Shown: positions 13,167 to 25,609 of the stretch, in pieces
Layout: the number at the start of each line of letters is the position of its first letter
Position numbering within the stretch: the first letter of the stretch is position 1
Source of the DNA: Mycolicibacterium baixiangningiae
GTDB taxonomy: Bacteria; Actinomycetota; Actinomycetes; Mycobacteriales; Mycobacteriaceae
Assembly: GCF_016313185.1 (NCBI RefSeq)
Contig: NZ_CP066218.1
Span: 1-64,000, forward strand
Direction: 5' to 3'
DNA length: 64,000 nucleotides
Notes under the pieces: model-generated
The model's input: only the letters and a program-made list of their open reading frames with translations
The model's database searches: none
What the model was told of the DNA's origin: nothing
Made by a program: the position numbers and the translations under genes

Positions 13167-13239
13167 GGGGCCTTAGCTCAGTTGGTAGAGCGCTGCCTTT
13201 GCAAGGCAGATGTCAGGAGTTCGAATCTCCTAGGCTCCA
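13167..13239 (+). tRNA. tRNA-Ala (TGC), integration target of the 10.4-kb element
   Basis: The 73-nt cloverleaf has acceptor GGGGCCT pairing with AGGCTCC (one G-T pair) plus A, an anticodon loop with TGC and T arm AGGAG-TTCGAAT-CTCCT. Its 3' part from position 13195 is repeated perfectly at 23620-23665, so the element integrated here and kept the gene intact. Confidence 0.97.
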
Positions 13240-13240
13240 C
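13195..13240 (+). repeat. attL: attL core: 46-bp direct repeat overlapping the 3' part of tRNA-Ala
   Basis: Forty-six bases, from the anticodon arm through the 3' end of tRNA-Ala plus one base, are identical to 23620-23665. This is the classic att core of a tyrosine-integrase element using a tRNA gene. The integrase gene lies directly inside the left end. Confidence 0.95.
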
Positions 13241-13250
13241 AAGTGAAACA

Positions 13251-13285
13251 GCAGGTCAGGCCCCATAAGGTCTGGCCTGTTCTGC
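13251..13285 (-). terminator. Hairpin between tRNA-Ala and integrase stop
   Basis: GCAGgtCAGGCC and GGCCTGttCTGC form a ten-pair stem with one 2-nt internal mismatch around the loop CCCATAAGGTCT. It lies three bases beyond the integrase stop (13288) and 12 bases after tRNA-Ala, so it could terminate transcription from either side. Confidence 0.6.
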
Positions 13286-13287
13286 GT

Positions 13288-14412
13288 TCAGGCAGCGTCC
13301 GTGCCCACACTTTGCCCACAATCACGAGTCAACAAGGCGTTGATCGCGACACCGACCGCGTCCACGTCGGACCCGTACAGGTGGCCGTAGCGGTCCAACG
13401 TCAACGCCGCCGACTCGTGGCCCAGCATGTTCTGCAAGCTCTTGATGTTCGCGTTCGCCTGGACCGCCAACGACGCCGCGGTGTGGCGCAGCTCGTGGAT
13501 CTTGAACTCGAACACCGTCTTGTTGTCGACCTGCCGGGGGAACAGCTGAGCCTTGGCCACCGCATCGGACCACCACCGCCGCCGTACGTTGCTCGCCCGC
13601 ATATGCCCGCCCGCGCTGTCCGGGAAGATCAACTCGCTGTCAGCGCCTCGATGTGGTCGTAGGAGATCGGCGACGAACGCCGGGAGGCTGACCGTGCGGC
13701 TCTTCCCGCCCTTCGGTGACCCCACCACGAACTTGTTGTCCACGAGCACCACCGACCGCGAGATCCTGATCGACAGCCGGTCTAGATCGACATCACGCCA
13801 CCGAAGCTCCGCGACCTCGCCGAACCGCAGCCCACAAGTCCCCAGGACGTACACCAGCGCCCGATGATCGCCCGCTGCACCCGCAAGGGTGTGCAACTGA
13901 TTCAGCGTCAGGAACCGCTGCTCCACAGTCGCCACAGACGGCAGCTCCACCCCATCCGCAGGGTTGAGCACCAGGCGGTTATCCGACACCGCCATCGCGA
14001 GCACCTGCCGAAGCACACCGACCACCTTGTGCACCGTCGCCGGAGACCGCTTTGAGCTGAGATCCGCGACCCACTCACGCACGAGTTGCCGCGAGATGTC
14101 TCCAATGGGCACCTGCGCATGGTTGGCGATGAACGTGCTCAGCACTACCTCGTACCTGGCCCGCGTCGACGGCTTCAGATTGTGCTTCGACCCCAACCAT
14201 TCCTCGGCGTACTCCCCCAGCTTCACCCGGCCGGCGGCCGGCGCCACGTATGCGCCCCGACGTTTATCGACCTCGAGCTGATTCGCCCACGCCTCCGCGT
14301 CCCGCTTCGTCCGGAAGCCGCGTTTGTCGGTCTGCCGCTTGTCTGGCGTGCGGTACCGGACGCGGTAACGCGTTGCACCAGAACCAGTTTCGTACTTCTC
14401 AATCGTCGCCAT
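13288..14412 (-). CDS. int: Tyrosine-type site-specific integrase
   Basis: This recombinase should catalyse integration and excision of the element at tRNA-Ala. The 374 residues begin MATIEKYETGSGATRYRVRYR, an AP2-like arm-binding N-terminus (about 1-55). A SAM-like core-binding domain follows at about 65-165, then the catalytic domain with Arg196 (TCGLRFGEV), the HxLR box HELRHTAAS at about 304-312 and Tyr near 341 (LDRYGHLY). All key residues are present, so it looks active. It points toward attL, next to its own attachment site. Confidence 0.96.
   Translation of the reverse strand: MATIEKYETGSGATRYRVRYRTPDKRQTDKRGFRTKRDAEAWANQLEVDKRRGAYVAPAAGRVKLGEYAEEWLGSKHNLKPSTRARYEVVLSTFIANHAQVPIGDISRQLVREWVADLSSKRSPATVHKVVGVLRQVLAMAVSDNRLVLNPADGVELPSVATVEQRFLTLNQLHTLAGAAGDHRALVYVLGTCGLRFGEVAELRWRDVDLDRLSIRISRSVVLVDNKFVVGSPKGGKSRTVSLPAFVADLLRPHRGADSELIFPDSAGGHMRASNVRRRWWSDAVAKAQLFPRQVDNKTVFEFKIHELRHTAASLAVQANANIKSLQNMLGHESAALTLDRYGHLYGSDVDAVGVAINALLTRDCGQSVGTDAA
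13302..13320 (+). repeat. Candidate integrase arm-type site, left (paired TGCCCACA)
   Basis: TGCCCACACTTTGCCCACA holds two TGCCCACA octamers 11 bp apart, inside the 3' end of the integrase gene. A near-identical site in the same orientation occurs at 23519-23537 by the other end (17 of 19 bases match). A symmetric pair flanking the core is what arm-type integrase binding sites look like. Confidence 0.55.
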
Positions 14413-14419
14413 GTCCGCC

Positions 14420-14965
14420 CTATTTCGTTCGTTCGGATTGGGTTAGGTAGCCCGCGGCGACGGCTCTCCCGACCCAGCGTTTGACGGTCGCAGTCGATAG
14501 CCCAAGTTCCTCGGCGATCATTGCGGTTGGTTTGCCCTCCTGTAGGCGCACCCACCTGTAGGCCCGCGCCAGGTCGTGAAGATCGGCATCGGTGAGGCCG
14601 TTCTTCTCTACGCGATCCCAGAATTCGTCCGGCGGCCCCGGAAGCCCCACCTCGTTGCCCTCGTGGCGCATGACCGTCTCGGCGGCGACGAAGCGGATGA
14701 ACGGCTCGACGGAAATCTTGGCAAGTTCGCCGCGCTGAATCGGCGGGCCGCCGTCGACCTGCTCGGCGACCAACGAGGTAACGACGAGTTTCCCAGTGCC
14801 ATCCGGCTCCACCGTGGCAACCAGATCGTAGGGAAGCTGATCGGACTCCGACGCCTCTGCCTTCACCTCGACCACGGCGAACCCCATCAGTGTCGGCGCG
14901 ACCGGGTGCCTCGCGAAAAGGCGGCCCGGGCACCCTGGCTTGCCATCTGTAGCGGTGATCTGCAC
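14420..14965 (-). CDS. Helix-turn-helix regulator, candidate element repressor
   Basis: The protein is about 181 residues if it starts at GTG 14965. An upstream in-frame ATG at 15106 would run the coding sequence through two palindromes and into the divergent promoter, so I prefer the later start. The C-terminus has a clear helix-turn-helix with a resolvase-like look (MIAEELGLSTATVKRWVGRA). The N-terminal part is not recognised. It lies seven bases upstream of int on the same strand and divergent from the replication/packaging operon, the usual place of an immunity repressor. Repressor function is inferred. Confidence 0.7.
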   Translation of the reverse strand: MQITATDGKPGCPGRLFARHPVAPTLMGFAVVEVKAEASESDQLPYDLVATVEPDGTGKLVVTSLVAEQVDGGPPIQRGELAKISVEPFIRFVAAETVMRHEGNEVGLPGPPDEFWDRVEKNGLTDADLHDLARAYRWVRLQEGKPTAMIAEELGLSTATVKRWVGRAVAAGYLTQSERTK

Positions 14966-15093
14966 GTCACCCAGGTTGTCACGGCGTGACCCACGTTCGC
15001 AACACCGGTGTTGCAATACCCGCTCAATCACTGTAGCTTCCTGAACGTGAGCTAGTGATGCAAAGGGCGCTCGCACGACCGAAAGGGACATAA
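14966..15093. promoter_or_regulatory. Divergent control region with two palindromic operators
   Basis: Between the repressor-like gene and the HTH gene are two perfect palindromes: GTCACG-G-CGTGAC at 14978-14990 and GCAACACCGGTGTTGC at 14999-15014. The second overlaps TTGCAA at 15011-15016, a possible -35 box, 17 bases before TAGCTT at 15034-15039, which fits the actinobacterial -10 pattern TANNNT. A repressor bound to the 16-bp site would block the rightward promoter. GAAAGGGA at 15080-15087 is the ribosome-binding site for 15094. Confidence 0.65.
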
Positions 15094-15315
15094 ATGGCGA
15101 ATGCACTGGACGGGCTGGACACCGCGACCAGCAAGGAGGTAGCCGAGTACCTACACACCACAGAGGCCGGACTGGCCCAGATGCGTTATCGCGGCATTGG
15201 TCCGAAATTCGTGAAGGTCACCTCGCGCAAGGTCATCTACCGCTGGGCGGACGTTCAGGCGTTCCTCGACGCCAACACGTGCCAGCGGACCGATGACCCA
15301 CGCGGGGCCGCGTAA
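15094..15315 (+). CDS. Helix-turn-helix protein, excisionase/AlpA-like
   Basis: A 73-residue protein with a winged-helix fold of the MerR/Xis type: TSKEVAEYLHTTEAGLAQMRYRGIG (helix-turn-helix, residues 12-36) and KVTSRKVIYRWADVQAFLDA (wing and last helix). Such small proteins serve as excisionases or as AlpA-like activators in phages and satellites. It is the first gene of the rightward run and sits directly downstream of the operator region. Its TAA overlaps the next ATG (taATGa). Confidence 0.8.
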   Translation: MANALDGLDTATSKEVAEYLHTTEAGLAQMRYRGIGPKFVKVTSRKVIYRWADVQAFLDANTCQRTDDPRGAA

Positions 15316-15977
15316 TGAACACCCCCCCAACAACAACAGCCCCCGTGGACCTCGACGTTGCCGCGTCGAGCGGGAGCTGCTGCAACCAACCCGCAGATGA
15401 ATACCGATTGGAGAACACCATCATGACACAAACCGAATATCCTCCGCTGCCTCTCGGCGCAGATCCGGATTACCCGGGCAATGACGACTGGCAGCCCGCC
15501 GAGGACGGCCGACCCCCGTACCGGTGCGTCGGATCGAAGCCATTCGACAACTATCTCGAAATCCGCGCTGTCATCGTCCAGTTCGCGGACGGAACCATTG
15601 GCACCGACGACGGTGACGAACCGGTTGTCTTCATCGGTCACACCGATTACCACCCCGACGACGCACGGGAAATCGCCGCAGCGATTATACGGGCCGCCGA
15701 TCTCGCCGATCAGTGGGCGCAACAGTCCAGTCCGGTGCGCGACACCCGCCTGGACACCGCCCGCGGCAGTCTGTGGTTGGCGCTGGAGAAGTTGTCTCAA
15801 CTGGAGCGAGATAAGGCCCGCCACGAACTCAACTGCATGGCGTGCCGGGTCGAGACGGAAGACGTGCGTTGCCCGATCTGCCAGGCCGATCCCGGTCAGC
15901 CCTGCGCAGACACGGACGGTGAACCTCGGATCGCCCCCCACGCTTCCCGCGCCTCCGTCGCTGAGGGGGGCAAATGA
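15315..15977 (+). CDS. Unknown protein with C-terminal phage-type zinc-binding motif
   Basis: The frame gives 220 residues from ATG 15315, which overlaps the previous stop. The start could instead be the internal ATG at 15423 (MTQTEYPPLPLG), preceded by GGAGAA; that would give 184 residues. The C-terminus has CMACR, CPIC, a Cys in QPCADTDG and a final PHASR. The C-x2-C plus GxPC...PH spacing resembles the small zinc-binding domains common in actinophage proteins. The central part is acidic and unrecognised. Function is unknown. Confidence 0.7.
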   Translation: MNTPPTTTAPVDLDVAASSGSCCNQPADEYRLENTIMTQTEYPPLPLGADPDYPGNDDWQPAEDGRPPYRCVGSKPFDNYLEIRAVIVQFADGTIGTDDGDEPVVFIGHTDYHPDDAREIAAAIIRAADLADQWAQQSSPVRDTRLDTARGSLWLALEKLSQLERDKARHELNCMACRVETEDVRCPICQADPGQPCADTDGEPRIAPHASRASVAEGGK

Positions 15978-16264
15978 CTGAGTCGGTTCTGACCCAGATG
16001 AAGCGTCGCCGGCAGTACGCCGATACCCGCTGCGGCCTGCTGGCTTGTGGTCGCTGCACCGACCCGTGGACATGCCGCTGCTACGACTCGGTCAAGGTCA
16101 CCGAGCAGTACGTCGACGGCTACCGCGATGCCGCCCAACATCTGCTCGCGCAGGGCCTGGCGCCGAGCCCCAACCTCGCAGCGATGCGGATCTTATGGCG
16201 GCGTGGCGGTGACGATCAGCGGCTCGCTGTCCGGCTCGCTGAATTGTGGGAGGTGGCGGCTTGA
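15974..16264 (+). CDS. Small cysteine-rich protein of unknown function
   Basis: The protein is 96 residues and its ATG overlaps the preceding stop (ATGA). A cluster of four Cys (CGLLACGRCTDPWTCRCY, residues 20-37, five Cys in all) suggests metal binding near the N-terminus. The C-terminal half is helical (DAAQHLLAQGLAP, AVRLAELW). It sits directly before the RepA-like ATPase and overlaps its start, so it is probably co-translated and may act with replication. I do not recognise the family. Confidence 0.65.
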   Translation: MTESVLTQMKRRRQYADTRCGLLACGRCTDPWTCRCYDSVKVTEQYVDGYRDAAQHLLAQGLAPSPNLAAMRILWRRGGDDQRLAVRLAELWEVAA

Positions 16265-17703
16265 TCGACCCTGAAGTGATCGCACGCGGAAAGGCGGCAG
16301 CCCAGCAGTGGGCTGCCGCCCCCGCGGCGCAACAGCGCAACAACGTCCCACCCGCAGCGGGTCGATCCGCCTCCATCCAGTGGGCGTCCACGATTCGGCC
16401 GAAGCGGCAGGTGTGGCTGTGGGAGAACAAGATCCCAATCGCCACCCCGTCCGCCCTCGCCGGTCGAGGCGGCACCGGGAAGACCACCTACGCGTGCCAC
16501 ATGATCGCCAGACTGTCCCGCGGACAGCTTCCCGGCCAGTACTACGGCCAGCCACGCCCGTCGCTGATCTGGTCCGGTGAAGACTCGTGGGAAACCGTCC
16601 TCGTGCCCCGCCTGATCGCGGCCGGCGCCGACCTCAACATGGTCGGCCGTCTCAGCATCGCCTCCAGTCTCGATGGCGGCGAGGTGACCCCGAGGCTGCC
16701 CCTCGACACACAGGCGGTGTCTGAGGCCGTCAGCGCCAGCGGGGCCGTGCTGGTTCTCCTCGACCCCATCGCGTCCACGATGAGCGGCGACCTACACCGC
16801 GAAGCTGATGTCCGGATCGCGGTCGACGCACTCGCACGTGTAGCCGACGACACCGGGGCGGTGATGATGTTCGTCCGCCACTTCGGCAAGGGCGGCGGCA
16901 ACGCCTCCGACAAGATGAGCGGGTCGCACGCATTCCGCGACGCGGTTCGCTCAGTGTTCCTGTTCGCCGAGGACGGCGACCGTGTGGTCGTTACCCAGGA
17001 CAAAGGTAACTACGCCCCCCGCGGGGAAGAGTCCTTCGCGTTCCGCCTCGAGAACATCACCGTCCCCACCGAGGACGGGCCGACCGATGTTGCCCGCGTC
17101 GCCGAACTCGGAACATCGGAGGTATCGGTGGGCGACGTCATCAACCGCATCCACCACGACGACGACGATGCCGGGGAACGCACCGCCGCCGAGCACTGGC
17201 TCGAGGACTACCTCACCGAAAACGGAGCAACCCCGTCCAAGGTGATCAAGACCGAAGCGCGCAAAGAAGGCATCAGCGAAGCCACGCTCAAGCGAGCAAA
17301 GAAGAAGCTCGGCGTCCTCGACCGCTCTGAAGGGTTCCCCCGGACCTCCACATGGGACCTGCCCAGTCAGCTCACCGATGAGCCGACTGTCCCCACTCGT
17401 GAGCCGACTGAGCCAACTGAGCCAACTGGCCGCGACCAGCAGAAACGCCATGAGCCAACTGAAGCCGATTCACAGTCGGCTCACGCCCCAGTGAGTGAGC
17501 CAACTGATGAGCCCACTGACGGCGGAACCGTTCCGACACCACCCACACCCCTCACCGCTCGACGACAGGAACTCAGCCAGCGCCGAACCATCCGGGTCAA
17601 GGGCAAAGAAGTACCCCGCTGCCTGGTCTGCGGCAAGGCCGTCATGGCAGGACAAGGTGACACCCACCTCGGATGCCTCAGCAAACAAGAAGCCGTGTCA
17701 TGA
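16261..17703 (+). CDS. RepA-like AAA ATPase / replicative helicase-type protein
   Basis: I take TTG 16261 as start because GGGAGGT (16249-16255) is correctly spaced before it and it overlaps the previous stop (TTGA); GTG 16246 is possible. The 480-residue protein has Walker A AGRGGTGKTTYA near residues 68-79, the sensor-like SGEDSWETVLVPRL, Walker B LVLLDPIAS near 165 and VRHFGKGG, which is the RecA-fold arrangement of RepA/AAA_25 helicases. A winged helix follows (SEATLKRAKKKLGV), then a Pro/Thr/Glu-rich segment encoded by repeated DNA, and a C-terminal zinc pair CLVCGKAV...HLGC. It is probably the replication protein of the element. Confidence 0.8.
   Translation: MIDPEVIARGKAAAQQWAAAPAAQQRNNVPPAAGRSASIQWASTIRPKRQVWLWENKIPIATPSALAGRGGTGKTTYACHMIARLSRGQLPGQYYGQPRPSLIWSGEDSWETVLVPRLIAAGADLNMVGRLSIASSLDGGEVTPRLPLDTQAVSEAVSASGAVLVLLDPIASTMSGDLHREADVRIAVDALARVADDTGAVMMFVRHFGKGGGNASDKMSGSHAFRDAVRSVFLFAEDGDRVVVTQDKGNYAPRGEESFAFRLENITVPTEDGPTDVARVAELGTSEVSVGDVINRIHHDDDDAGERTAAEHWLEDYLTENGATPSKVIKTEARKEGISEATLKRAKKKLGVLDRSEGFPRTSTWDLPSQLTDEPTVPTREPTEPTEPTGRDQQKRHEPTEADSQSAHAPVSEPTDEPTDGGTVPTPPTPLTARRQELSQRRTIRVKGKEVPRCLVCGKAVMAGQGDTHLGCLSKQEAVS
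17379..17518 (+). repeat. Eight iteron-like 11-bp repeats TGAGCCRACTG
   Basis: Copies start at 17379, 17400, 17409, 17418, 17451, 17496 and 17508, with one inverted copy at 17473-17483. The variable sixth position of the motif is G, A or, once, C. Seven copies are in the same reading frame and encode Glu-Pro-Thr. The inverted copy encodes different residues, so protein repetition alone does not explain it. Iterons placed inside or beside a rep gene are a common origin design for phages, satellites and plasmids. Confidence 0.6.
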
Positions 17704-18098
17704 AACGCCGCGTCATCTACCCATCGGAATTCTTCGACCGCCCCGAACAGGAGACCACCACCATGAGCGACGACGACAACCTCGACGTCGACCCCGTCGA
17801 CGACCTGCGCATCTACCGCGGCCAACTCCAGGCCATCGAACTCTGCCGCGCCGTCGCGGCCAACGCCGGCGACGCAGCCGACGCCATGTACGCCGCCGAG
17901 GATGAACAGGGCGTGCTCAAGTACCTCGTCGCCGGCCTCACCCACCTGGCCATCTCACTGGCCCGCACAGTCGTCGAGCAGCACGACGACCCCAACGTTG
18001 ATGAGCAACGTGTGTGGGCCAGCCTCACCGAACGCAGCACCACCGGCCTGATCGCCACCCACGAGATCAGCCAAATCACCGGAGACGACACCGCATGA
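17700..18098 (+). CDS. Acidic protein of unknown function
   Basis: The ATG at 17700 overlaps the ATPase stop, and the stop overlaps the HNH start, so it is tightly coupled at both ends. It encodes 132 residues, very acidic at about 20-36 (MSDDDNLDVDPVDD) with predicted helices (AIELCRAVAANAGDAADAMYA, GLTHLAISLARTVVEQH). An internal ATG at 17763 preceded by CAGGAGACC could also serve. It is placed where phages often encode a small terminase, but I see no helix-turn-helix, so I do not make that call. Confidence 0.65.
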   Translation: MKRRVIYPSEFFDRPEQETTTMSDDDNLDVDPVDDLRIYRGQLQAIELCRAVAANAGDAADAMYAAEDEQGVLKYLVAGLTHLAISLARTVVEQHDDPNVDEQRVWASLTERSTTGLIATHEISQITGDDTA

Positions 18099-18478
18099 CC
18101 TTGAAGCCATGCGTCGACTGCGGCGAACCTTGCACCGGACCACGATGTGACGAGCACACCGTGGTCGACACCAAGGCCCCCGCCACGGCCCGCGGCTACG
18201 ACTGGCGCTGGACGCAATTGTCCCGCCGAGCGCGACGACTCCAACCGTTCTGCACCGACTGCGGCAACACCGAGGACTTGCAGACCGACCACTCCCCAGA
18301 AGCATGGGCACGCAAGGCCGCAGGCAAGACCATCAGGCTTCAGGACATCGACGTGGTGTGCGGACCCTGCAACCGTGCCCGTGGTGCGGCACGCGGCGAC
18401 TCAGCCACCAGGGGGGTAGGGCCTAGCCGACCTGCTCCCGACCCCGTGGTGAGGCCAAGTTTGAGAGTGAGATCGTGA
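18095..18478 (+). CDS. HNH endonuclease
   Basis: The 127-residue protein starts MTLKPCVDCGEPC. It has an N-terminal zinc pair (CVDCGEPC), then ARGYDWRWTQLSRRARRLQ, FCTDCGNTEDLQTDHSPEAW and VVCGPCNRARG. The TDH dipeptide with paired CxxC motifs is the beta-beta-alpha metal HNH nuclease fold. HNH genes placed right before the large terminase are common in phages and capsid-forming satellites, where they assist packaging or cos cleavage. Both ends overlap neighbours (ATGA and GTGA). Confidence 0.9.
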   Translation: MTLKPCVDCGEPCTGPRCDEHTVVDTKAPATARGYDWRWTQLSRRARRLQPFCTDCGNTEDLQTDHSPEAWARKAAGKTIRLQDIDVVCGPCNRARGAARGDSATRGVGPSRPAPDPVVRPSLRVRS

Positions 18479-19929
18479 AGTCCGGCGCGAAGGGCACCGT
18501 AAAGGTCGCTCCGCTGGACTTTTCCGGCCTCCCTGACGGCCGTGCGGCGCGTCGTCTGGCGTTCATCGAGCGGTACCTCAAGGTGCCGAAGGGTGTGGGC
18601 GCCAAGGCCCCCATTCATCTCCGTGACTTTCAGGTCGAGATCGTCGAGACGGTGTTCGCGGACGGCATCCGGACCGGACTGGTGTCGTTGCCCCGTGCCA
18701 ACGGGAAGACTGCCCTGGCGGCCATGCTGGCGGTCGCGGAGTTGTTCGTGGGGGACTCCTCGGCCGAGGTATTGGTGGTCGCCAGTGATCAGCGTCAGGC
18801 GATGATCACGCTGCGGATGGCCCGCCGGATGATCGAGCTGACGCCGGCCTTGGCTGACCGTTCGCAGATATATGCGGACCGCATCATCGTGCCGGAGAAC
18901 GACGGCTTGTTGCTGCCTCTGCCCGCCGAACCGGGTGCCCTGCACGGCCATGACCCTTCGCTGTTGATCGTCGATGAGCTGCACGTCGTGAACGAGCAGA
19001 CGTGGGAGGCCGTGACGTCGATGACGGGCAAGCGACCCGAGTCGTTGACGTTGGCGATCTCGACGCCGGCCTCGTCGCCAGACAGCATCATGTGGAAGCT
19101 GGTCGAGCACGGCCGGATGGGTGACGATCCGTCGTTCGCGTTGCGGGAGTTCGCGGCCCCGGACGGTTGCGCCACGGATGACAAATCAGCGTGGCGGATC
19201 GGCAATCCGGCACTGTCGTGCGAGGACCCGTTCCTCGCTGAGGATGGGCTGGCGGCCGCGCGGCGGACGCTGCGGGAGCCGGTGTTTCGTCAGCTTCGTC
19301 TCGGCCAGTGGGTGACGGGTGCAGACGCCTGGTTGCCGTTCGGGGCGTGGGATGGCTGCGGCATCGAGCGCACCGTGCAGCCCCGCGAGCGTGTCGTCCT
19401 GGCGTTCGACGGATCGGCGTCGGGTGACTCCACGGCGCTGGTGGGCTGCACTCTCGATGGGCACCTGTGGGTCGAGGGGTTGTGGGAGAACCCAGGGGAT
19501 CTGCGCTGGCGTGTGCCGCGCGAGGATGTCACCCGCGCTGTGGATGTGGCGTTCACGAAGTACGACGTCGTCGAATTGGCGTGTGACCCGTGGGGGTGGC
19601 GCTCGGAGATCGAGGACTGGGCTAAACGCCACGGTGAGCGTCGAGTCCTCGAATGGAACACCGCTCACGGGCAGCGGATGGCGCCGGCCACGGACCGCCT
19701 CTATCAGGCCGTGGTTACCAACGCCGTGACGCATGACGGTGATCCGCGGATGGCTGCCCACATTGCGCACTGCGTGGCTAAAACGACCCCGATGGGAGAT
19801 CTCGTTTCCAAAGACAAACGCGGGTCTCCCCGCAAGATCGACGCCGCCGTAGCCGCCATCGTGGCCTTCGACCGGGCGGCGTGGCACCAACAACGAAACC
19901 GTAAGCGAGTAAGGAGTTTTGCCTCATGA
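18475..19929 (+). CDS. Phage terminase, large subunit
   Basis: TerL is the ATP-driven motor and nuclease that packages DNA into preformed heads. The 484-residue protein (GTG start overlapping the HNH stop) has Walker A SLPRANGKTA at residues 71-80, Walker B LLIVDELHVV near 163-172, a coupling motif (LAISTPAS) and the nuclease domain opening with LAFDGSASGDSTALVG. The length and motif order are those of TerL from siphovirus-type phages. It overlaps the portal start by four bases. Confidence 0.94.
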   Translation: MKSGAKGTVKVAPLDFSGLPDGRAARRLAFIERYLKVPKGVGAKAPIHLRDFQVEIVETVFADGIRTGLVSLPRANGKTALAAMLAVAELFVGDSSAEVLVVASDQRQAMITLRMARRMIELTPALADRSQIYADRIIVPENDGLLLPLPAEPGALHGHDPSLLIVDELHVVNEQTWEAVTSMTGKRPESLTLAISTPASSPDSIMWKLVEHGRMGDDPSFALREFAAPDGCATDDKSAWRIGNPALSCEDPFLAEDGLAAARRTLREPVFRQLRLGQWVTGADAWLPFGAWDGCGIERTVQPRERVVLAFDGSASGDSTALVGCTLDGHLWVEGLWENPGDLRWRVPREDVTRAVDVAFTKYDVVELACDPWGWRSEIEDWAKRHGERRVLEWNTAHGQRMAPATDRLYQAVVTNAVTHDGDPRMAAHIAHCVAKTTPMGDLVSKDKRGSPRKIDAAVAAIVAFDRAAWHQQRNRKRVRSFAS

Positions 19930-21257
19930 CCCAAGATGAACTGGTGCTGCTGCTGATGCAGCGCCTCGACGAACCAGCCGCCCGTTACAGCGAGCTGGAC
20001 TTGTACTACGACGGCCAGCAGCCGTTGGCGTTCCTCAGCCCCGAAGCGAAGATCGCCTTGGGGAGCCGCTTCGGGGTGATGGCTTCGAACATCCCCCGCC
20101 TGGCGGTGACCGCGCTCGCGGAGCGGCTACGGATCACCGGATTCACCGGAGATGCTGGCCTGTGGGCGGATTGGATTCGTAACGACCTCGACCAGACCTC
20201 AGGTGTGGCGCACCGGGAAGCGCTGCTGCTCGGTGACAGTTACGTCATCGTGTGGGCCGACCAGTTCGGCCGGCCGAAGGTGACGGTGGAGTCTGCGAAA
20301 CAGGTTGCCGTGCAGATCGACCCCGGCACCCGGCAGATCACCGCCGCTATCAAGCGCTGGGAGACCAGGACGACGACCGAGGCGGTGTTGTACCTCCCGG
20401 ATCGGATTTTGCGGCTGCGCGCCAACCAGACCGGGGCCACCACCATCGGCTTCAACACCGTGGACACCATCGCCAACCCGCTTGGCGTGGTCCCTGTTGT
20501 GGCGCTGCGGAACTCCGACCGCATCCTCGACGACTACGGCGTCAGCGAGATCGACGACCTGAAGCCGCTCGTCGACGCGCTCAACAAGTCGTTGGCCGAC
20601 ATGATGGTCACCTCCGAGTATGTCGGCCGGCCGCGCCGCTGGGCCACGGGCATCGAACTGACCGAGGAACCGATCCTCGACGGCGACGGGCATCCGGTCA
20701 TGGACGGCACCGGCCAGCCCGCGACGCGGGAGATCAACCCGATTCCTGAGGGGCACCGGGCGATGATCTCGGAGAACGATCAGGCCAAGTTCGGGCAACT
20801 GCAAGCCGCCGACCTCACCGGCTACGAAGCGTCGGTTCGGGTAATCCTCGGGCAGGTCATGGCCGTCAGCACCCTGCCCGCGCACTACGTCGGCGTGTTC
20901 ACTGACAACCCGGCATCCGCAGATGCGCTACGGGCTGCCGAAGCATCACTGACTGCCCGCGCCGAAGCCCGGCAAGCCACCTTCGGCCGGTCGTGGGAAC
21001 AGGTGGCGCGGTTGATGATCGCAGTCCGAGATGGGCGCGACCCCCAGCTGATCACCGACATTCGAGTGCAGTGGGCCGACGCCGCAACGCGGTCGGTCGC
21101 CCAGGAGGCCGACGCCGTGGTGAAGCTGTTCCAGGCCGGTCTGCTGCCGCAGTCCTACGCACTGGCGAAGCTCGGTTACCCCGACGACGAAATCGCCAAG
21201 ATCAACGCCGCCACACCGGGAACCGATGCACAGCAGGTGATCCGCGATGCGGCTTAG
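19926..21257 (+). CDS. Phage portal protein
   Basis: The portal forms the dodecameric ring at the capsid vertex through which DNA passes. The protein is 443 residues, typical for the SPP1/HK97-like portal families of actinophages. Segments such as YYDGQQPLAFLSPEAK, NIPRLAVTALAERLRITGF, NPLGVVPVVALRN and VMAVSTLPAHYVGVFTDNPASADALRAAEASL follow the portal pattern. ATG 19926 overlaps the TerL stop. Identification rests on similarity to remembered actinophage portals and on the TerL-portal-capsid order. Confidence 0.9.
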   Translation: MTQDELVLLLMQRLDEPAARYSELDLYYDGQQPLAFLSPEAKIALGSRFGVMASNIPRLAVTALAERLRITGFTGDAGLWADWIRNDLDQTSGVAHREALLLGDSYVIVWADQFGRPKVTVESAKQVAVQIDPGTRQITAAIKRWETRTTTEAVLYLPDRILRLRANQTGATTIGFNTVDTIANPLGVVPVVALRNSDRILDDYGVSEIDDLKPLVDALNKSLADMMVTSEYVGRPRRWATGIELTEEPILDGDGHPVMDGTGQPATREINPIPEGHRAMISENDQAKFGQLQAADLTGYEASVRVILGQVMAVSTLPAHYVGVFTDNPASADALRAAEASLTARAEARQATFGRSWEQVARLMIAVRDGRDPQLITDIRVQWADAATRSVAQEADAVVKLFQAGLLPQSYALAKLGYPDDEIAKINAATPGTDAQQVIRDAA

Positions 21258-21432
21258 TTCACGGACTGTCTATGCGGACGTGAGCGTTGTGGAGGAGTCC
21301 ACCGCCCGGCCGCTGCGCATGAACTTCGGCGGCATCGTCTTCCGGCTAGACGTAGACGAAGCAATCGAACTGGCCAACAAACTCGTCGACACCGCCGAGA
21401 GCGTCAAGATACAAGACAGGAAGCAATCATGA
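21247..21432 (+). CDS. Small protein of unknown function between portal and scaffold-like genes
   Basis: The frame encodes 61 residues (MRLSSRTVYADVSVVEES), starting 11 bases before the portal stop and overlapping the next gene by four bases (ATGA). The tight packing on both sides argues that it is translated. It contains a beta-rich start and a helix DVDEAIELANKLVDTAESV. No family is recognised. Confidence 0.6.
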   Translation: MRLSSRTVYADVSVVEESTARPLRMNFGGIVFRLDVDEAIELANKLVDTAESVKIQDRKQS

Positions 21433-21902
21433 CCGACACGACCGACACCGAGTCCCCCGAGACCGACTCAATCAACACCGACGCCGACACAAATTCCAGT
21501 TCTGTAAATAGCGAATCCGCTAATACCGATTCGGGCAGCGATGTTGGGGAATCTCCCAATACCGACGATGAGCCCGATGCCTTCCCGCGGGTTTACGTCG
21601 AACGGCTTCGTCGGGAATCTGCCGGTTACCGCGAACGCGCCCAACGCGGCGACGCCTACGCCCAACGGCTCCACACGGAAATGGTGCGGGCCACCGGCCG
21701 CCTCGCCGACCCCACCGACCTCGCATTCGACGAAACTCACCTCGACGACCCCGACGCCCTGGCCGCCGCCGTTGACGATCTCCTCGCCCGTAAGCCACAC
21801 CTCGCGACTCGCCGGCCATCCGGTGACATCGGACAAGGCGCGATGTCGGGCGCCACAGCTAACGTGGACCTCGCCGCACTTTTGCGGCAACGAGCGCAAT
21901 AG
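21429..21902 (+). CDS. Acidic scaffold-like capsid assembly protein
   Basis: The 157-residue protein opens with about 50 Asp/Thr/Ser/Glu-rich residues and continues into a helical segment with many Arg/Glu (RVYVERLRRESAGYRERAQRGDAYAQRL), then ALLRQRAQ at the end. An acidic N-terminus, a predicted coiled coil and a position between portal and capsid are what phage scaffolding proteins look like. The role is inferred from position and composition. The base composition of the acidic stretch (many aat/tct codons) is less GC-rich than its neighbours. Confidence 0.7.
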   Translation: MTDTTDTESPETDSINTDADTNSSSVNSESANTDSGSDVGESPNTDDEPDAFPRVYVERLRRESAGYRERAQRGDAYAQRLHTEMVRATGRLADPTDLAFDETHLDDPDALAAAVDDLLARKPHLATRRPSGDIGQGAMSGATANVDLAALLRQRAQ

Positions 21903-21913
21903 AAGGAGAAGGC

Positions 21914-22093
21914 ATGGCAGACCTGCAGAACCTATCCGAGGAAGTCGCGGAGGCAATTCTGGCGCAGATTCGCGACACTGCTCCGCGCCACTCGGGAGGC
22001 GAAGCGCTGGCGCACCTCGCGAACGCTTACGCAACAGTGGTCGGAGCGATGCCAAGGCCGAAAAGCGGGGGGCGAAACGCGGTTACCGCCTGA
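21914..22093 (+). CDS. 59-residue protein of unknown function
   Basis: ATG 21914 follows a good ribosome-binding site (GAAGGAGAAGG, 21902-21912). The frame gives MADLQNLSEEVAEAILAQIR, then a helical middle and a basic end (PRPKSGGRNAVTA). It fills most of the gap between the scaffold-like gene and the capsid gene, which makes it likely to be real despite its size. No family is recognised. A longer frame on another register here lacks a start with a binding site. Confidence 0.6.
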   Translation: MADLQNLSEEVAEAILAQIRDTAPRHSGGEALAHLANAYATVVGAMPRPKSGGRNAVTA

Positions 22094-22190
22094 TTCTCCG
22101 GTATTCTGGAGGGGTCGGTCCTGGTGGCCGGCCCCTTCTCCGTCCTGACGACGTGGGCACCGAATCCACTCGAATCGTTAGGACACTCCC

Positions 22191-23060
22191 ATGGCTGTAT
22201 CGACGACCTCTGCAAGCGAACTCACCGCCGAGCAGGTCATCAAGATCCTCGTCAAACCGCTCGAGGAGGCCGCGAAGTTCCTCGCCGCCGGCCCCCGGAT
22301 CTTCGACACCGCCTCCCCGATCCGCATCCCCAAACTCGGCGGCCCCACCGTGGTGTCGTGGGTCGGTGAGAACGAACAGATCCCCGAGGCCAATCCCGAC
22401 TTCGACGAGATCGAGCTGCTCCCCTCGACGATGAAGTCACTTAAGACGCTCACCCGCTACTCCAACGAGCTGGCCCGCCAGTCCGTCATTGCCCTTGACG
22501 CCGCGCTGAAGGACCGCCTCGTGACCGACGTCGCCGCCAAGCTCGACTCGCAGCTCTTCTCCGCCTCCGGTGACGGAACCACCACCCCACAGGGATTGTT
22601 CGCCTGGTCGGGTACCCAGACCCTCGCTGTCGGTGGTGCGCTGACCCTCGACCACCTGCATGACGCCGAAGCCCTCGCCCTCGGGGCCAACGTCGACCCC
22701 ACGAGCATGCGGTGGGTGATGACGTCCCGCGAGCTGATCAAGCTTCGGAAGATCAAAGATTCGGACGGCCGATACATTGTGCAGTCCGATGTCACCGCGG
22801 CCGGCGGCTACACCCTGTTGGGGCACAACGTGATTGTGAGCAACCGTGTCCCTGACACCACCGGCGGCACCGCCACCGCCCGCGCCGCCCTCGTCGACTT
22901 CAGCAAGGTCGCCGTAGCCCGCGACCTGGCACCCTCGGTGAAGGTGCTCGACCAAACCTTCGGCGACTACGACCAACTGGCCCTGCGGGTCGTCTGCCGC
23001 TACGACGCCAAGCCGCTGAACGCCGAAGCCGTCGTGAAGCTCACCGGGATCACCATCTGA
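22191..23060 (+). CDS. Phage major capsid protein (HK97 fold)
   Basis: The 289-residue protein builds the icosahedral head. It shows features of HK97-type capsids: an N-terminal helix (EQVIKILVKPLEEAAKFLA), the E-loop region IPEANPDFDEIELLPSTMK, the spine-helix region YSNELARQSVIALDAALKDRLV, the conserved SASGDGTTTPQGLF and the C-terminal P-domain strand RVVCRYDAKPLNAEAVVKL. No N-terminal delta/protease domain is apparent; the separate acidic protein upstream may act as scaffold. The stop overlaps the next start (TGATG). Confidence 0.93.
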   Translation: MAVSTTSASELTAEQVIKILVKPLEEAAKFLAAGPRIFDTASPIRIPKLGGPTVVSWVGENEQIPEANPDFDEIELLPSTMKSLKTLTRYSNELARQSVIALDAALKDRLVTDVAAKLDSQLFSASGDGTTTPQGLFAWSGTQTLAVGGALTLDHLHDAEALALGANVDPTSMRWVMTSRELIKLRKIKDSDGRYIVQSDVTAAGGYTLLGHNVIVSNRVPDTTGGTATARAALVDFSKVAVARDLAPSVKVLDQTFGDYDQLALRVVCRYDAKPLNAEAVVKLTGITI

Positions 23061-23389
23061 TGCCCGCCGTCTACCCCGCCGATGTCGTCACCCTCACCAC
23101 CGAGGGCGACGGCACAGCACTTGCCGTGGCCGAGCAGATCGTGCCGCTCGTCACCGCGATGGCCAAGGCTTACACCAGAGGCCGCGGGTTTCACGACAAC
23201 GGCGAACCGTTCGACGACGTTGCCGCAGCGATCGCCACAGCCTGCGCCCGATTCATGGGCAACCCCAAGCAGGCGCTGGAGGCCCAGACCATGGGACCGT
23301 TCACCCGAGATCACCGGTCTCGGGGATTCGAGGGCTGGACCCTCGCCGAGCAGTCCGTCCTGAACCGGTACCGCAAACGGGCCATGTAA
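23060..23389 (+). CDS. Head-tail adaptor / connector protein
   Basis: The 109-residue protein starts at ATG 23060 overlapping the capsid stop. It is mainly helical (IVPLVTAMAKAYTRGRGF, DVAAAIATACARFMGNPKQA) and ends GWTLAEQSVLNRYRKRAM, resembling the small gp6/gp15-type adaptors that follow the capsid in actinophages and bind the portal to accept the tail. It is the last gene of the element: the tail genes that normally follow are missing, which is why the element looks dependent on a helper. Confidence 0.8.
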   Translation: MPAVYPADVVTLTTEGDGTALAVAEQIVPLVTAMAKAYTRGRGFHDNGEPFDDVAAAIATACARFMGNPKQALEAQTMGPFTRDHRSRGFEGWTLAEQSVLNRYRKRAM

Positions 23390-23619
23390 AGACCGGTAGC
23401 CGGGGGCACGGGCGTCAAACCCACTTTCAACTGGTGTTTCCTTTCATGGGCAAAGGACTGCCAAGACGGGCTTGGTCAGCCCCAGCGGTACCTGCGCCAA
23501 CCCCGGCTGCCCAACTTCTGCCCACAACTTGCCCACAGTTACAGTTATCTCTACTGAGTCACAGTGACGTAATTCTGCAGTGTGTGCATGACTCCAACCC
23601 CTGAACTGCACCGTGATTC
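23390..23619 (+). other. Non-coding right end of the element with candidate arm-type site
   Basis: No credible gene lies between the adaptor stop and attR. The stretch contains TGCCCACAACTTGCCCACA at 23519-23537, matching 17 of 19 bases of the site at 13302-13320 by the left end. Both sit 60-85 bp from the att core on their own side, as arm-type integrase sites would. No clear terminator hairpin is seen for the packaging operon. Confidence 0.55.
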
Positions 23620-23665
23620 GCCTTTGCAAGGCAGATGTCAGGAGTTCGAATCTCCTAGGCTCCAC
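23620..23665 (+). repeat. attR: attR core: duplicated 3' part of tRNA-Ala
   Basis: The 46 bases are identical to 13195-13240 and amount to a tRNA-Ala fragment from the anticodon arm to the 3' end. It is not a functional tRNA because the acceptor 5' strand and D arm are replaced by element sequence. It marks the right junction; excision would give a 10,425-bp circle. Confidence 0.95.
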
Positions 23666-23721
23666 TCTCTTCGTTTTTCATGGGCGCGCGCGTCCCCTCA
23701 CCCCCGGGCTACGTTGTTCGT

Positions 23722-24627
23722 GTGGAGCTCCGGCAGCTGGAGGCGTTCGTCGCCGTGGCCACCGAGCTGCATTTCGGGCGGGCGGCGCAGAAGCTACACG
23801 TCAGTCAGCCGACGCTCAGCGATATGGTGCGGCGTCTGGAACGCGAGCTGGGCACTCCCCTGCTGAACCGTACGACCCGCCGGGTTGTTCTGACCACGGC
23901 CGGCGTCGAGATGCAGCGGCGCGCCCAGCTGATCCTCGACGAGGTCAACAACGCCGCGGCTGCCGTGCACCGAATGGCCGACGGCGATGTCGGGACGGTG
24001 CGCGTCGGTGTCACACCGCCGGTCGCGCCGGTGCTCGCGCCGCATCTGGCCGCGGCGTTGCGTGCTGAGGCCCCCGAGGTGGAGATCACGGTCAGCCGGA
24101 TGTGGCTGCACGACCTGGAGCGTGCCCTCGTCGAGGCCACCGTCGACGTCGCGATCACGTGCAGCCCCGTTCCCGGATCCCACAGTGCGCTCACCGAAGT
24201 CGTCTGCGGTGAGGATCTTCTGGTGGGATTGCGGCCCGATCACCGGTTGGCCGGACAGGAAGCGGTGTCGCTGTCCGACCTGGCCGACGAAACGTTCGGT
24301 ATGCCCAGCGAGGCGTTGTTTCCTGCATGGGCACTCGCGCATCAGGACGCGTTGCGTGAGGCGGAGGTGGCCCCGCCGATCGTGGAGCTCGTCGACACCG
24401 ACCTCACGTCCCGTAAGTGGGCCGAGCAGGCCGGCGTCGACTGGATCATGACGACGGCGTCGGTCGCCGCGCCCGACATGAACGCCGTCCTGCGGCCGAT
24501 GGCACCACCCCGGCTGATCCGGTTCATGGTGCACTGGATTCCCGGTCAGGCGCCCAACCCGGCGGTGGCCCGCTTCGTCCGGTTGGCTCGCACCGCCGAA
24601 CTCCCCCCGGGGTGGATCAGGCTCTGA
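23722..24627 (+). CDS. LysR-family transcriptional regulator
   Basis: I chose GTG 23722 (MELRQLEAFVAVA) because LysR proteins start this close to their helix-turn-helix. A frame open from 23680 would add residues next to attR. The 301-residue protein has the classic winged helix-turn-helix HFGRAAQKLHVSQPTLSDMVRRLERELGTPL, a linker helix and a periplasmic-binding-like effector domain (VRVGVTPPVAPVLAPHL onward). It lies upstream of, and in line with, an alpha/beta hydrolase gene that it may control. The effector cannot be told from sequence. Confidence 0.92.
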   Translation: MELRQLEAFVAVATELHFGRAAQKLHVSQPTLSDMVRRLERELGTPLLNRTTRRVVLTTAGVEMQRRAQLILDEVNNAAAAVHRMADGDVGTVRVGVTPPVAPVLAPHLAAALRAEAPEVEITVSRMWLHDLERALVEATVDVAITCSPVPGSHSALTEVVCGEDLLVGLRPDHRLAGQEAVSLSDLADETFGMPSEALFPAWALAHQDALREAEVAPPIVELVDTDLTSRKWAEQAGVDWIMTTASVAAPDMNAVLRPMAPPRLIRFMVHWIPGQAPNPAVARFVRLARTAELPPGWIRL

Positions 24628-24733
24628 TTGATAGGCAGCGCCGATAACTGTTCTGCGCAAGTGCCGCTTTTTCTCGACGTGAATGGTGCGCAATCTGGTG
24701 GGAGCCATGCCACGCGTCCGAGAAGAGGCTTCC

Positions 24734-25600
24734 ATGACGTCATTCAGCACCCGTCACCAGACCGTCCAGATCGACGGTCTCGACGTCTTCTACCGAGAGG
24801 CCGGCGACCCATCCAAGCCGACTGTGCTTCTGTTGCACGGCTTTCCGTCCAGCTCGCACATGTTTCGCAATCTGATCCCCGCTCTGGCCGACGAGTACCA
24901 CCTCGTGGCACCCGATCACATCGGGTTCGGGCGCTCGGCGATGCCGTCGGTCAACCAGTTCACCTACAGCTTCGACCGGCTGACCGAGATCACCGAGAAA
25001 CTCATCGATCGCCTGGAGCTGGACCGGTTCGCGATCTACATCCACGACTACGGCGCACCGATCGGCCTGCGCATTGCGAGCTCGCGACCCGAACGCATCA
25101 CGGCCATCATCAGCCAAAGCGGTAACGCGTACCTCGAAGGCTTCACGCCGTTCTGGGACATATTGTTCGCTCACGCCGAAGACCGTGCAGCCAACGAGGA
25201 CGGGGTGCGCGCGTACTTCACGCTCACGACGACGAAATGGCAATACACCCACGGCGTTCCGGCCGACCGACTCGATCGGATCGCACCCGAAGCCTGGTTG
25301 CTCGATCAGGCGGGGCTGGACCGGAGGGGCAACGACGCGATCCAGCTGCAACTGTTCTGGGATTACCAGTTCAACCTCGACGGCTACCCGAAGTTCCAGG
25401 AGTACTTCCGTACGCATCGGCCGCCGCTTCTCGTCACCTGGGGCCGCAACGACGAGATCTTCGGTGCGGCGGGAGCCGAGGCCTTCCGGCGTGACCTCCC
25501 GGACGGAGAGTTCCACCTGCTCGATACCGGCCACTTCGCTCTGGAGACACACGGAGAAGAAATCAGCGGCTACATACGCGACTTCCTCGGGCGGCTCTAG
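24734..25600 (+). CDS. Alpha/beta-fold hydrolase, haloalkane dehalogenase / epoxide hydrolase-like
   Basis: Start ATG 24734 (MTSFSTRHQTVQIDG) has AGAAGAGG upstream; an earlier in-frame start at 24683 is less likely. The 288-residue protein has the oxyanion motif LLHGFPSSSHMF, the nucleophile elbow IHDYGAPIG (Asp where lipases have Ser), WGRNDEIFG before the acid residue and DTGHFALETH with the catalytic His. An Asp nucleophile points to haloalkane dehalogenase, epoxide hydrolase or fluoroacetate dehalogenase chemistry rather than an esterase. The substrate is unknown. The LysR gene 106 bases upstream is the probable regulator. Confidence 0.88.
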   Translation: MTSFSTRHQTVQIDGLDVFYREAGDPSKPTVLLLHGFPSSSHMFRNLIPALADEYHLVAPDHIGFGRSAMPSVNQFTYSFDRLTEITEKLIDRLELDRFAIYIHDYGAPIGLRIASSRPERITAIISQSGNAYLEGFTPFWDILFAHAEDRAANEDGVRAYFTLTTTKWQYTHGVPADRLDRIAPEAWLLDQAGLDRRGNDAIQLQLFWDYQFNLDGYPKFQEYFRTHRPPLLVTWGRNDEIFGAAGAEAFRRDLPDGEFHLLDTGHFALETHGEEISGYIRDFLGRL

Positions 25601-25609
25601 ACGTGTGAC

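Follow-up and report, generated by a model that had tools for sequence, protein, structure and literature searches.

The window, a stretch of 64,000 nucleotides from contig NZ_CP066218.1 of Mycolicibacterium baixiangningiae, contains a 10,425-bp element inside a tRNA-Ala(TGC) gene (Table 1). The element is bounded by two perfect 46-bp direct repeats, 10,425 bp apart, which an earlier note on this DNA had already read as att sites. In a relative in which the same site is unoccupied (L213), one flank of the repeat matches the window up to position 13194, and the other flank, about 50 bp from the repeat, matches it from about position 25609.

Table 1. Features of the element and its insertion site, in window positions
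Feature	Position	Strand	Evidence
tRNA-Ala(TGC), integration target	13167..13240	+	ARAGORN
attL, 46-bp repeat within the tRNA gene, at its 3' end	13195..13240	+	repeat search
Candidate integrase arm sites, TGCCCACA repeats	13302..13321	.	repeat family; role inferred
Tyrosine integrase	13288..14412	-	PF00589 2e-20, phrog_1 4e-70
Regulator with C-terminal helix-turn-helix (HTH)	14420..15106	-	weak HTH matches
Small HTH protein, excisionase-like	15094..15315	+	PF12728 1e-4, phrog_66 1e-6
220-aa protein, C-terminal zinc finger	15315..15977	+	PF24623 1e-7
96-aa Cys-rich protein	15974..16264	+	no Pfam or PHROG match
RepA/RadA-like AAA ATPase	16246..17703	+	PF13481 (AAA_25) 8e-29, phrog_10729
141-aa protein	17673..18098	+	no family match; sole match in relatives, 30 residues in L131
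HNH endonuclease	18095..18478 (longest ORF from 18014)	+	phrog_4234 1.7e-5, weak; gene kept in relatives
Candidate cos site, in 3' end of HNH gene	18441..18470	+	conserved motif and contig ends
Terminase large subunit (TerL)	18475..19929	+	PF03354, PF20441, phrog_9 1e-86
Portal protein, SPP1-type	19926..21257	+	PF05133 1.5e-33, phrog_104 6e-108
61-aa protein	21247..21432	+	present in some relatives
Scaffold protein	21429..21902	+	phrog_4708 and phrog_233, weak, best E 2e-4; position kept in relatives
59-aa protein	21914..22093	+	present in a few relatives
HK97-type major capsid protein	22191..23060	+	PF05065 7e-44; no protease domain match
Head-tail adaptor (portal-proximal neck ring)	23060..23389	+	profile and fold match to Douge gp9
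Candidate integrase arm sites, similar to the TGCCCACA repeats of 13302-13321	23508..23538	.	repeat family; role inferred
attR, 46-bp repeat	23620..23665	+	repeat search

Gene content and the end of the element

All named genes of the element are open reading frames, in agreement with the earlier note's statement that none is broken. Its intact integrase, its divergent control region (regulators on the minus and plus strands) and its RepA-like ATPase were likewise recovered. The true start of the minus-strand regulator probably lies further inside the listed frame, at an ATG near 14887, and the ATPase is a probable replication helicase. The Cys-rich protein had 10 matches among the ORFs of other elements, with some loci counted twice.

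Among the packaging and head genes, the TerL, portal and HK97 capsid assignments rest on Pfam matches, and the HNH and scaffold-like genes proposed earlier also held, through weak PHROG matches and, for HNH, conservation in relatives. The claim that nearly all genes are coupled by 4-bp overlaps was overstated: with the longest ORFs, such overlaps occur at 4 of 12 plus-strand junctions, and alternative starts at 16261 (TTG), 17700 (ATG) and 18095 (ATG) would raise the number to 7. At two junctions the genes are instead separated, by 11 and 97 bp. No head maturation protease family was found among the 17 ORFs scanned with Pfam and PHROG, and the same families revealed no small terminase, for which the HNH and TerL genes leave no gap; the 141-aa orphan protein could be one. 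Family searches of the ORFs recognized no stopper, tail or lysis genes in the element.

On its own, the adaptor sequence matches nothing in Pfam and, weakly, one PHROG of unknown function. Its family profile matches gp9 of siphophage Douge (E = 8e-7), which is also the best fold match of the predicted adaptor model (TMq, 0.71), and the adaptor named in the earlier note is thereby borne out. Beyond it, as the note had said, nothing but attR follows: the 230 bp 3' of the gene hold two tiny ORFs without family matches. Since the last protein matches the adaptor of a siphophage, the element probably ends at the joint between adaptor and stopper. In the published Douge connector (8ZDJ; PMC13033339), the adaptor shares family and fold with that of the element, and the portal is related. 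Douge itself, by contrast, is described as a complete siphophage that has a stopper, a terminator and a tail tube.

Relatives, selection and a candidate cos site

To compare lengths, we defined bounded elements as those with a repeat pair overlapping a tRNA or tmRNA gene, picked by eye. Forty regions with close capsids were fetched: 25 were of the window's type, 4 (L141 to L144) were of another type, and 11 were not bounded (L124, whose sole pair is 16 kb apart; L136 and L158, with short repeats away from a tRNA; and eight without countable repeats). The 28 bounded elements of the window's type, window included, have a median length of 10,555 bp (range, 10,050 to 12,855 bp), and the longest carries a transposase ORF. 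The same plan and size recur at 17 kinds of tRNA or tmRNA gene, with anticodons counted apart. Members of the family are carried by, for example, Acidipropionibacterium jensenii DSM 20535 (L004), Cryobacterium sp. 1639 (L006) and Isoptericola cucumis CCM 8653 (L020). Genes were not counted with a simple ORF chooser, as its gene calls were poor.

The earlier note had proposed a search for the same gene block between att repeats and without tail genes, with homologs that always run on into tail and lysis genes, or that carry inactivating mutations, as the contrary outcome. In the 27 bounded relatives, the distance from capsid to attR is 412 to 3,345 bp (the capsid end of L167 was assumed), and scanning both strands 3' of the capsid revealed no convincing tail gene. 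The post-capsid ORFs of at least 60 aa (101 on the strand of the capsid gene, 95 on the opposite one) mostly lacked any match; the rest matched head-tail adaptor or connector families, one transposase, one DNA-binding protein and a few unknown families, and a single weak "minor tail" stretch covered 34 residues. Some relatives look damaged, such as L146 with a split TerL and L008 with its capsid in two frames. That so many relatives share one plan points to a working parasite lineage rather than a broken virus.

Against the three closest copies compared, the capsid, TerL and portal genes have dN/dS ratios of 0.03 to 0.21, indicating purifying selection. Compared with the capsids of L128, L131 and L133, which are 45% identical, the capsid ratio is 0.68 to 0.79, a poor estimate at such a distance; the adaptor ratio is 0.29 to 0.78. 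Among 50,697 phage records, every match to the capsid, TerL and portal was below 60% identity (best among the matches listed, 27%, 33% and 37%, respectively), megablast gave no match to the element, and no full-length phage with close head genes was present in this collection.

We then searched the stretch upstream of TerL for a conserved motif, using ten seeds that included the window. An unrestricted search had been dropped, as it converged on the conserved start codon of TerL. The seeded search returned a cos-like motif scoring above 10 bits in 111 of 131 regions and 24.8 bits in the window, itself a seed; an unseeded search trained on half of the data returned it too. The right part of the motif, 22 bases long, has a single occurrence in the window, and the predicted cut falls at 18452/18453 with an overhang of about 10 nt (18443-18452). 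In 11 elements whose capsid is of another type, and in two further elements that occupy the same tRNA-Ala site, no convincing copy of the motif was found (best score, ≤13.1 bits).

Metagenome contigs bear on the same position. From 72 picked by name, we removed 18 distant contigs and 4 truncated by the flank limit of the analysis, leaving 50 complete contigs of the family. Eight of these are rotated across attP, contig ends cluster at the HNH-TerL motif, and rotated contigs that end on it lack about 10 nt; terminal repeats of at least 10 bases are absent from all 50. The ends of L052 and L320 are off the exact predicted position, and that of L254 fits the motif weakly (5.1 bits). Because the motif is conserved and the rotated contigs end on it, these data suggest that it is a cos site and that the contigs represent packaged linear DNA. 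A 19-base degenerate pattern of the half-motif matched 10 viral contigs, five of which were family contigs already in the set, two of them under new locus numbers (L329 and L330). The other five (L326, L327, L328, L331 and L332) contained no family terminase in the stretch examined and were therefore treated as chance; one weak 23% match, in L332, was their sole capsid match.

A satellite reading and its alternatives

The element is most plausibly an integrated member of a phage satellite lineage that is widespread in actinobacteria, a reading to which we assign a probability of roughly 0.8 on sequence evidence. Since it has its own genes for building and filling heads and no recognizable tail genes, it probably borrows tails from another virus. 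The earlier note's preference for a working satellite over a decayed prophage is supported by the bounded, tail-less relatives and by the constraint on the head genes.

Also in favor of the satellite reading, the tape-measure family PF10145 had 18 matches, spread over 16 of the 58 genomes scanned (the window's own and 57 from which a capsid region was fetched), and none of them lay within the fetched elements.

We searched for a resident helper. The host genome contains no second TerL, portal or capsid detectable with the Pfam families searched, and neither PF10145 nor PF05709 matched there, the latter being insensitive in these genomes (one weak match in 58). That no resident helper was detected with these families would fit a lineage member whose copy in this genome has lost mobility. 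We consider this unlikely, as the ORFs are all open, the 46-bp repeats perfect and the cos-like motif present.

Deletion of the tail and lysis genes from a prophage would also leave a phage-like region holding head genes only, and elements of the same content have been filed as prophage-like, defective or, for phiBN44_1, remnant (PMC3986857). However, 28 bounded elements share this content between att repeats, their sites span many tRNA and tmRNA genes and their sizes a narrow range, the head genes are constrained relative to their closest copies, and the collection searched held no full-length phage with close head genes. Neither inactivated genes nor relatives with full-length gene content, the marks of a remnant, were found for the element, and decay is very unlikely.

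An autonomous small phage with an unrecognized or unusual tail or entry device might be sought in the small proteins without assigned function (61, 59, 96 and 141 aa) and in contig ends that resemble packaged DNA. The adaptor, which is of siphophage kind, closes the set of structural genes, no lysis gene was recognized, and relatives have no more than 3.3 kb beyond the capsid, too little for the tail module of a siphophage, which makes this highly improbable. Chromosomal head genes under purifying selection could in principle serve the cell as a gene-transfer-agent-like or domesticated head, but gene-transfer agents package random host DNA. Signs of mobility make this barely credible: the element encodes an integrase and lies between att sites, unoccupied sites exist, the family uses many different targets, and the ends of rotated contigs cluster at one site of the element's own.

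If the element is a satellite, it would excise and then replicate, HNH and TerL would cut concatemers at the cos site directly upstream of TerL, and TerL would pack one 10.4-kb unit into a small self-made head. An infecting siphophage would contribute the stopper and tail on which the adaptor ring docks, and would also lyse the cell. A broader proposal, which we regard as tentative and on balance doubtful, is a class of cos-packaging satellites of Actinomycetota in which the division of the siphophage virion falls precisely at the joint between adaptor and stopper. Above the joint would lie satellite parts, with a very small head fixing the genome at ∼10.5 kb, and below it parts of any of several siphophages; such satellites would use their own HNH-TerL cos site, with no small terminase of the classical kind, and public metagenomes would already contain packaged copies.

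Small "prophage remnants" that hold head genes only are frequent in mycobacteria and are also present in other actinobacteria. Should these prove to be working satellites, they would carry genes from strain to strain and compete with phages, and they could alter phage behavior in their hosts. The element yields two sharp predictions: its packaged DNA should end at one named site, and the virion should be joined at the adaptor.

Comparison with known systems

The same architecture was published in 2014 for mycobacterial prophage-like elements of 11.1 to 12.9 kb, phiMmcs_1, phiBN44_1 and phiMCAN_1 (PMC3986857). By their described gene content, they largely match the window's element: all are listed with an integrase, a RadA-like protein or primase, HNH, terminase, portal and capsid, two of the three also with a scaffold, and one element lies in tRNA-Pro. 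Unlike the window element, phiMmcs_1 was assigned a lysin-like gene at its end. That account terms the three prophage-like, defective or remnant. In 2023, phage-like regions combining an integrase and a major capsid gene, including phiRv1 and phiRv2, were proposed as candidate mycobacterial PICIs, some in tRNA genes and some with helicase, terminase and scaffold genes (PMC10654092). Our element has both genes in one such region. The description of these candidates states that phage induction is yet to be demonstrated, and the passages on them mention neither a packaging site nor a neck interface nor a constraint on size.

Capsid-forming PICIs (PMC10690885) carry their own head and packaging genes and HNH and use helper tails. 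The element likewise encodes head and packaging proteins and HNH, and helper tails would complete the likeness. The definition given there also calls for a protease for head maturation and for a small terminase. In this strict sense, the earlier label "capsid-forming" fits in part: capsid, portal, head-tail connector, TerL and HNH (the last a weak match) are encoded, whereas neither the protease nor a small terminase was recognized; the element also differs in its separate scaffold. The Streptomyces phage satellites MulchRoom and MiniFlayer are described in the same source with terminase, portal, capsid, scaffold, head-to-tail adapter and HNH genes, and MulchRoom with a tyrosine integrase, all as in the element. 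Those two have direct terminal repeats and both small and large terminase, whereas the element has cos-like ends and no small terminase that we could recognize. The element is thus another member of an already proposed kind; new in this analysis are the HNH-TerL motif and the rotated contigs that end on it.

The element and its tRNA-Ala site

A repeat search of the window confirmed the element as it had first been observed: it is 10,425 bp long and ends in perfect 46-bp direct repeats, and the 230 bp from the adaptor gene to attR hold no recognisable genes. The earlier claim that nearly all genes are coupled by 4-bp overlaps stands only in part; such overlaps exist, but at 4 of the 12 plus-strand junctions when the longest ORFs are taken and at 7 at most if the internal starts 16261, 17700, and 18095 are used. 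Because the left repeat forms the 3′ end of the tRNA-Ala(TGC) gene, the tRNA stays whole upon integration. Short TGCCCACA repeats flank the att core on either side in the circular form, placed as integrase arm sites would be, a role that we infer from their position.

Features of the element, its surroundings, and elements at the same repeat in other genomes (percentages are identities)
Feature	Position	Strand	Remarks
gyrA-like gene	8187-11966		just upstream; insertion reads like an intein (from translation)
tRNA-Ala(TGC)	13167-13240
Left 46-bp repeat	13195-13240
TGCCCACA repeats	13302-13321, 23508-23538
Tyrosine integrase		minus
Regulator		minus	with integrase
First part, in order		plus	small HTH protein, zinc-finger protein, 96-aa protein, AAA_25 ATPase, 141-aa orphan, HNH
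Second part, in order		plus	TerL, SPP1-type portal, 61-aa protein, scaffold, 59-aa protein, HK97-type capsid protein, 109-aa adaptor
Candidate cos motif	18441-18470		predicted cut 18452/18453; inside HNH gene end
Right 46-bp repeat	23620-23665
Stretch right of attR	23666-25608		LysR-type and hydrolase-type ORFs (named from translations)
Element in L209	3873-14105 (of L209)		10,232 bp; integrase 81%; capsid, no match
Element in L210	4804-14842 (of L210)		10,038 bp; integrase 80%; capsid 26%
Element in L133			10,805 bp; integrase 75%; TerL and portal 82%; capsid 45%

The site is unoccupied in the related genome G014, where locus L213 has a single repeat copy; one flank matches the window up to 13194, and the match of the other, to the window from about 25609, begins about 50 bp beyond the repeat. 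Loci L215 and L216 are also without the 10-kb insertion, as only about 0.8 and 0.3 kb, respectively, separate their matches to the two window flanks. The stretch directly right of attR is unmatched at all three sites, with the match resuming at about window 25609-25626, and may have been inserted separately at this location.

In three further genomes, elements are bounded by the window's 46-bp repeat in perfect copies. Their identities differ by module, which suggests that the integrase, TerL/portal, and capsid/adaptor modules recombine between elements. Those in L209 and L210, about 10 kb long, combine a related integrase with different head genes, and the tRNA-Ala site seems common to several capsid types. 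Locus L211 of genome G012 is probably a shrunken element at this site: the tRNA-Ala repeat, from 3076, is followed after about 3.1 kb by a second copy (98%), and a short piece of an integrase is also present.

Relatives, element size, and tail genes

The element's DNA had no megablast match in 50,697 phage records. At the protein level, the capsid matched 126 of these records, TerL 2,703, and the portal 1,894, all below 60% identity (best among the matches listed, 27%, 33%, and 37%, respectively), and the adaptor matched none. The head genes therefore branch separately from the full phages in this collection.

Relatives were found elsewhere. The capsid query returned 19 loci in genome contigs, all actinobacterial by record title, and 43 contigs in IMG/VR, many with a length of 9 to 11 kb. 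Capsid matches at E ≤ 1e-3 occurred in 127 of 396 genomes of the genus (57 at E < 1e-45 by hand count of the table, own genome included) and in 85 of 401 genomes of the family-rank set. We examined the surroundings of 40 close and 20 distant capsids, 60 regions of about 20 kb each (two shorter). The order HNH-TerL-portal-scaffold-capsid-adaptor was conserved in most close regions, exceptions including L141-L144 (a different head cluster), L125 (no HNH match), and L146 (TerL split). A second set of 8.4- to 10.6-kb elements in tRNA genes (L141-L144, L163, L168, L169, L172, and L174-L176) has other capsids and, in some cases, another gene order. In the larger contigs L290 and L029, the element genes come in two consecutive sets, or with a second integrase next in line, which suggests neighbouring or tandem elements.

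The earlier note had proposed searching other genomes for the same att-bounded block without tail genes, and such blocks were found. Counting as bounded a repeat pair that overlaps a tRNA or tmRNA gene, we obtained, besides the window's own element, 25 of its type from the 40 close regions and 2 from the 20 distant ones. These 28 span 10,050 to 12,855 bp (median, 10,555; mean, 10,733; SD, 534). In L127, the longest, a transposase ORF follows the adaptor; leaving this element out brings the mean to 10,654 bp (SD, 342), and then adding six further loci, for a total of 33 with a minimum of 9,437 bp, gives 10,559 bp (SD, 419). Eleven elements of other capsid types measured 8,402 to 10,608 bp.

In the 27 relatives, the capsid end lies 412 to 3,345 bp from attR (capsid end assumed for L167). 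We scanned every ORF of at least 60 aa in this stretch on both strands against PHROG and Pfam, and the only sign of a tail gene was a single weak "minor tail" PHROG match (34 residues; E = 5e-4) on the capsid strand. The 101 ORFs of that strand otherwise matched mostly head-tail adaptor, connector, and head closure PHROGs, plus the transposase ORF and some unknown families (Pfam: transposase and DUF). On the other strand, the matches among the 95 ORFs were to one DNA-binding family, two PHROGs without a known function, and two Pfam families whose function is unknown or unrelated. Tape measures (PF10145; 18 matches in 16 of 58 genomes searched) lay outside the fetched elements in every case; the closest one to share a contig with an element is about 76 kb off, in genome G477 (by subtraction; shared contigs only, some genomes being fragmented). 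Longer unknown ORFs lie between capsid/adaptor and attR in L157 (11716-12546), L167 (12013-13173), and L122 (7567-8493, minus strand); this position may be a cargo slot, left empty in the window's element.

At close range, the head genes appear constrained. The dN/dS values for capsid, TerL, and portal were 0.07, 0.12, and 0.14 against L021 (a metagenome contig with the window's tRNA-Ala repeat), 0.03, 0.12, and 0.10 against L119, and 0.13, 0.21, and 0.19 against L120, the pattern expected of a lineage whose heads work. The adaptor (0.29 to 0.78) and the small accessory genes are under weaker constraint. For the capsid, values of 0.68 to 0.79 came from the comparisons with L128, L131, and L133 (45% identity), a divergence at which the simple method is unreliable. 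As comparative evidence, size, tail test, and dN/dS support the earlier reading of a satellite over that of a decayed prophage.

A candidate packaging site

Scanning IMG/VR with capsid, TerL, portal, and HNH yielded 72 contigs with metagenomic names, of which 50 are complete members of the element family. In eight (L037, L039, L052, L254, L271, L272, L302, and L320), the integrase or HNH follows the capsid/adaptor, so these rotated contigs span the joined att site. TerL starts 34 (L039), 51 (L052), 36 (L053), 34 (L254), 81 (L272), and 63 (L320) bp from the 5′ end, and HNH ends 37 (L037), 0 (L039), 33 (L052), 15 (L272), and 186 (L320) bp from the 3′ end. Nine of the 100 contig ends fall within one 100-bp stretch, versus about one expected (binomial P = 7e-7 if ends are uniform). 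Tandem integrated copies could explain some rotated contigs but not the clustered ends. None of the 50 contigs has terminal direct repeats of at least 10 bases.

Between HNH and TerL, 22 to 564 bp from TerL, a motif, ccCCCnnGGcaA/GGCAAAGTTTGcGTTACA (slash, boundary of its halves), exceeded 10 bits in 111 of 131 distinct regions, versus 0 to 3 of 131 shuffled; the search was seeded with ten sequences, the window included. With an unseeded model trained on 65 regions, the best whole-locus hit on both strands fell in the HNH-TerL stretch in 53 of 66 held-out loci, many of which are related and hence not 66 independent tests. The motif was not convincingly found in the second set of elements. L039 (17.8 bits) and L053 (12.1) carry its right half from base 1, as does L254 with a weak score (5.1), and L272 carries it from base 2 (13.1); the ends of L052 and L320 depart from this pattern. 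At the 3′ side, L037, L039, and L272 stop about 10 to 11 bases short of the boundary (by eye against integrated relatives). Judging from how cos phages cut their DNA and how sequencing libraries are made, such contig ends would result from a staggered cut with a 3′ overhang of about 10 nt, subsequently blunted.

Neck boundary, helper, and known satellites

A model of the adaptor built from a 41-adaptor alignment (mean pLDDT, 85) had as its best fold match 8zdj_a (TMq, 0.71; Foldseek E = 0.0012), followed by 7z4w_a of the SPP1 gp6/gp15/gp16 connector (0.64; E = 0.02); the SaPI1 neck 9mu3_A was a weak eighth (0.59; E = 4.8). The adaptor profile likewise matched 8zdj_a and 8zdl_a, "Adaptor Protein (gp9)" (E = 8e-7 and 1e-6). 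8ZDJ is the connector of the mycobacterial siphophage Douge, with portal gp5, adaptor gp9, and gp10, gp12, and gp13 as stopper, terminator, and tail tube (PMC13033339). The element's portal matches Douge gp5, with 9d94 as the better match. Given the profile and fold matches to gp9, the element's neck genes reach the adaptor and probably end before the stopper; stopper and tail would be supplied by a helper phage.

The window's own genome (6.18 Mb) has a single match each for TerL (PF03354), portal (PF05133), and capsid (PF05065), all in the element, and none for PF10145 or PF05709. As no resident helper was detected with these five families, any helper would probably be of outside origin; the account of one cfPICI (capsid-forming PICI) in PMC11389934 likewise describes working helpers not native to its strain.

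Elements of this kind are already known. phiMmcs_1, phiBN44_1, and phiMCAN_1 have largely the same gene set (PMC3986857, 2014); integrase-plus-capsid regions, phiRv1 and phiRv2 included, have been proposed as candidate PICIs in an account that does not show induction (PMC10654092, 2023); Streptomyces satellites with head genes are described (PMC10690885); and small actinobacterial prophages may be satellites (PMC10023795). In our searches of open-licence papers, we saw no report of a neck boundary or a cos site in such elements. What we add here, the adaptor boundary and the candidate cos site, makes the satellite idea directly testable. Although the element departs from the strict cfPICI gene list, with no protease and no recognised small terminase, it appears to work most like a capsid-forming satellite.
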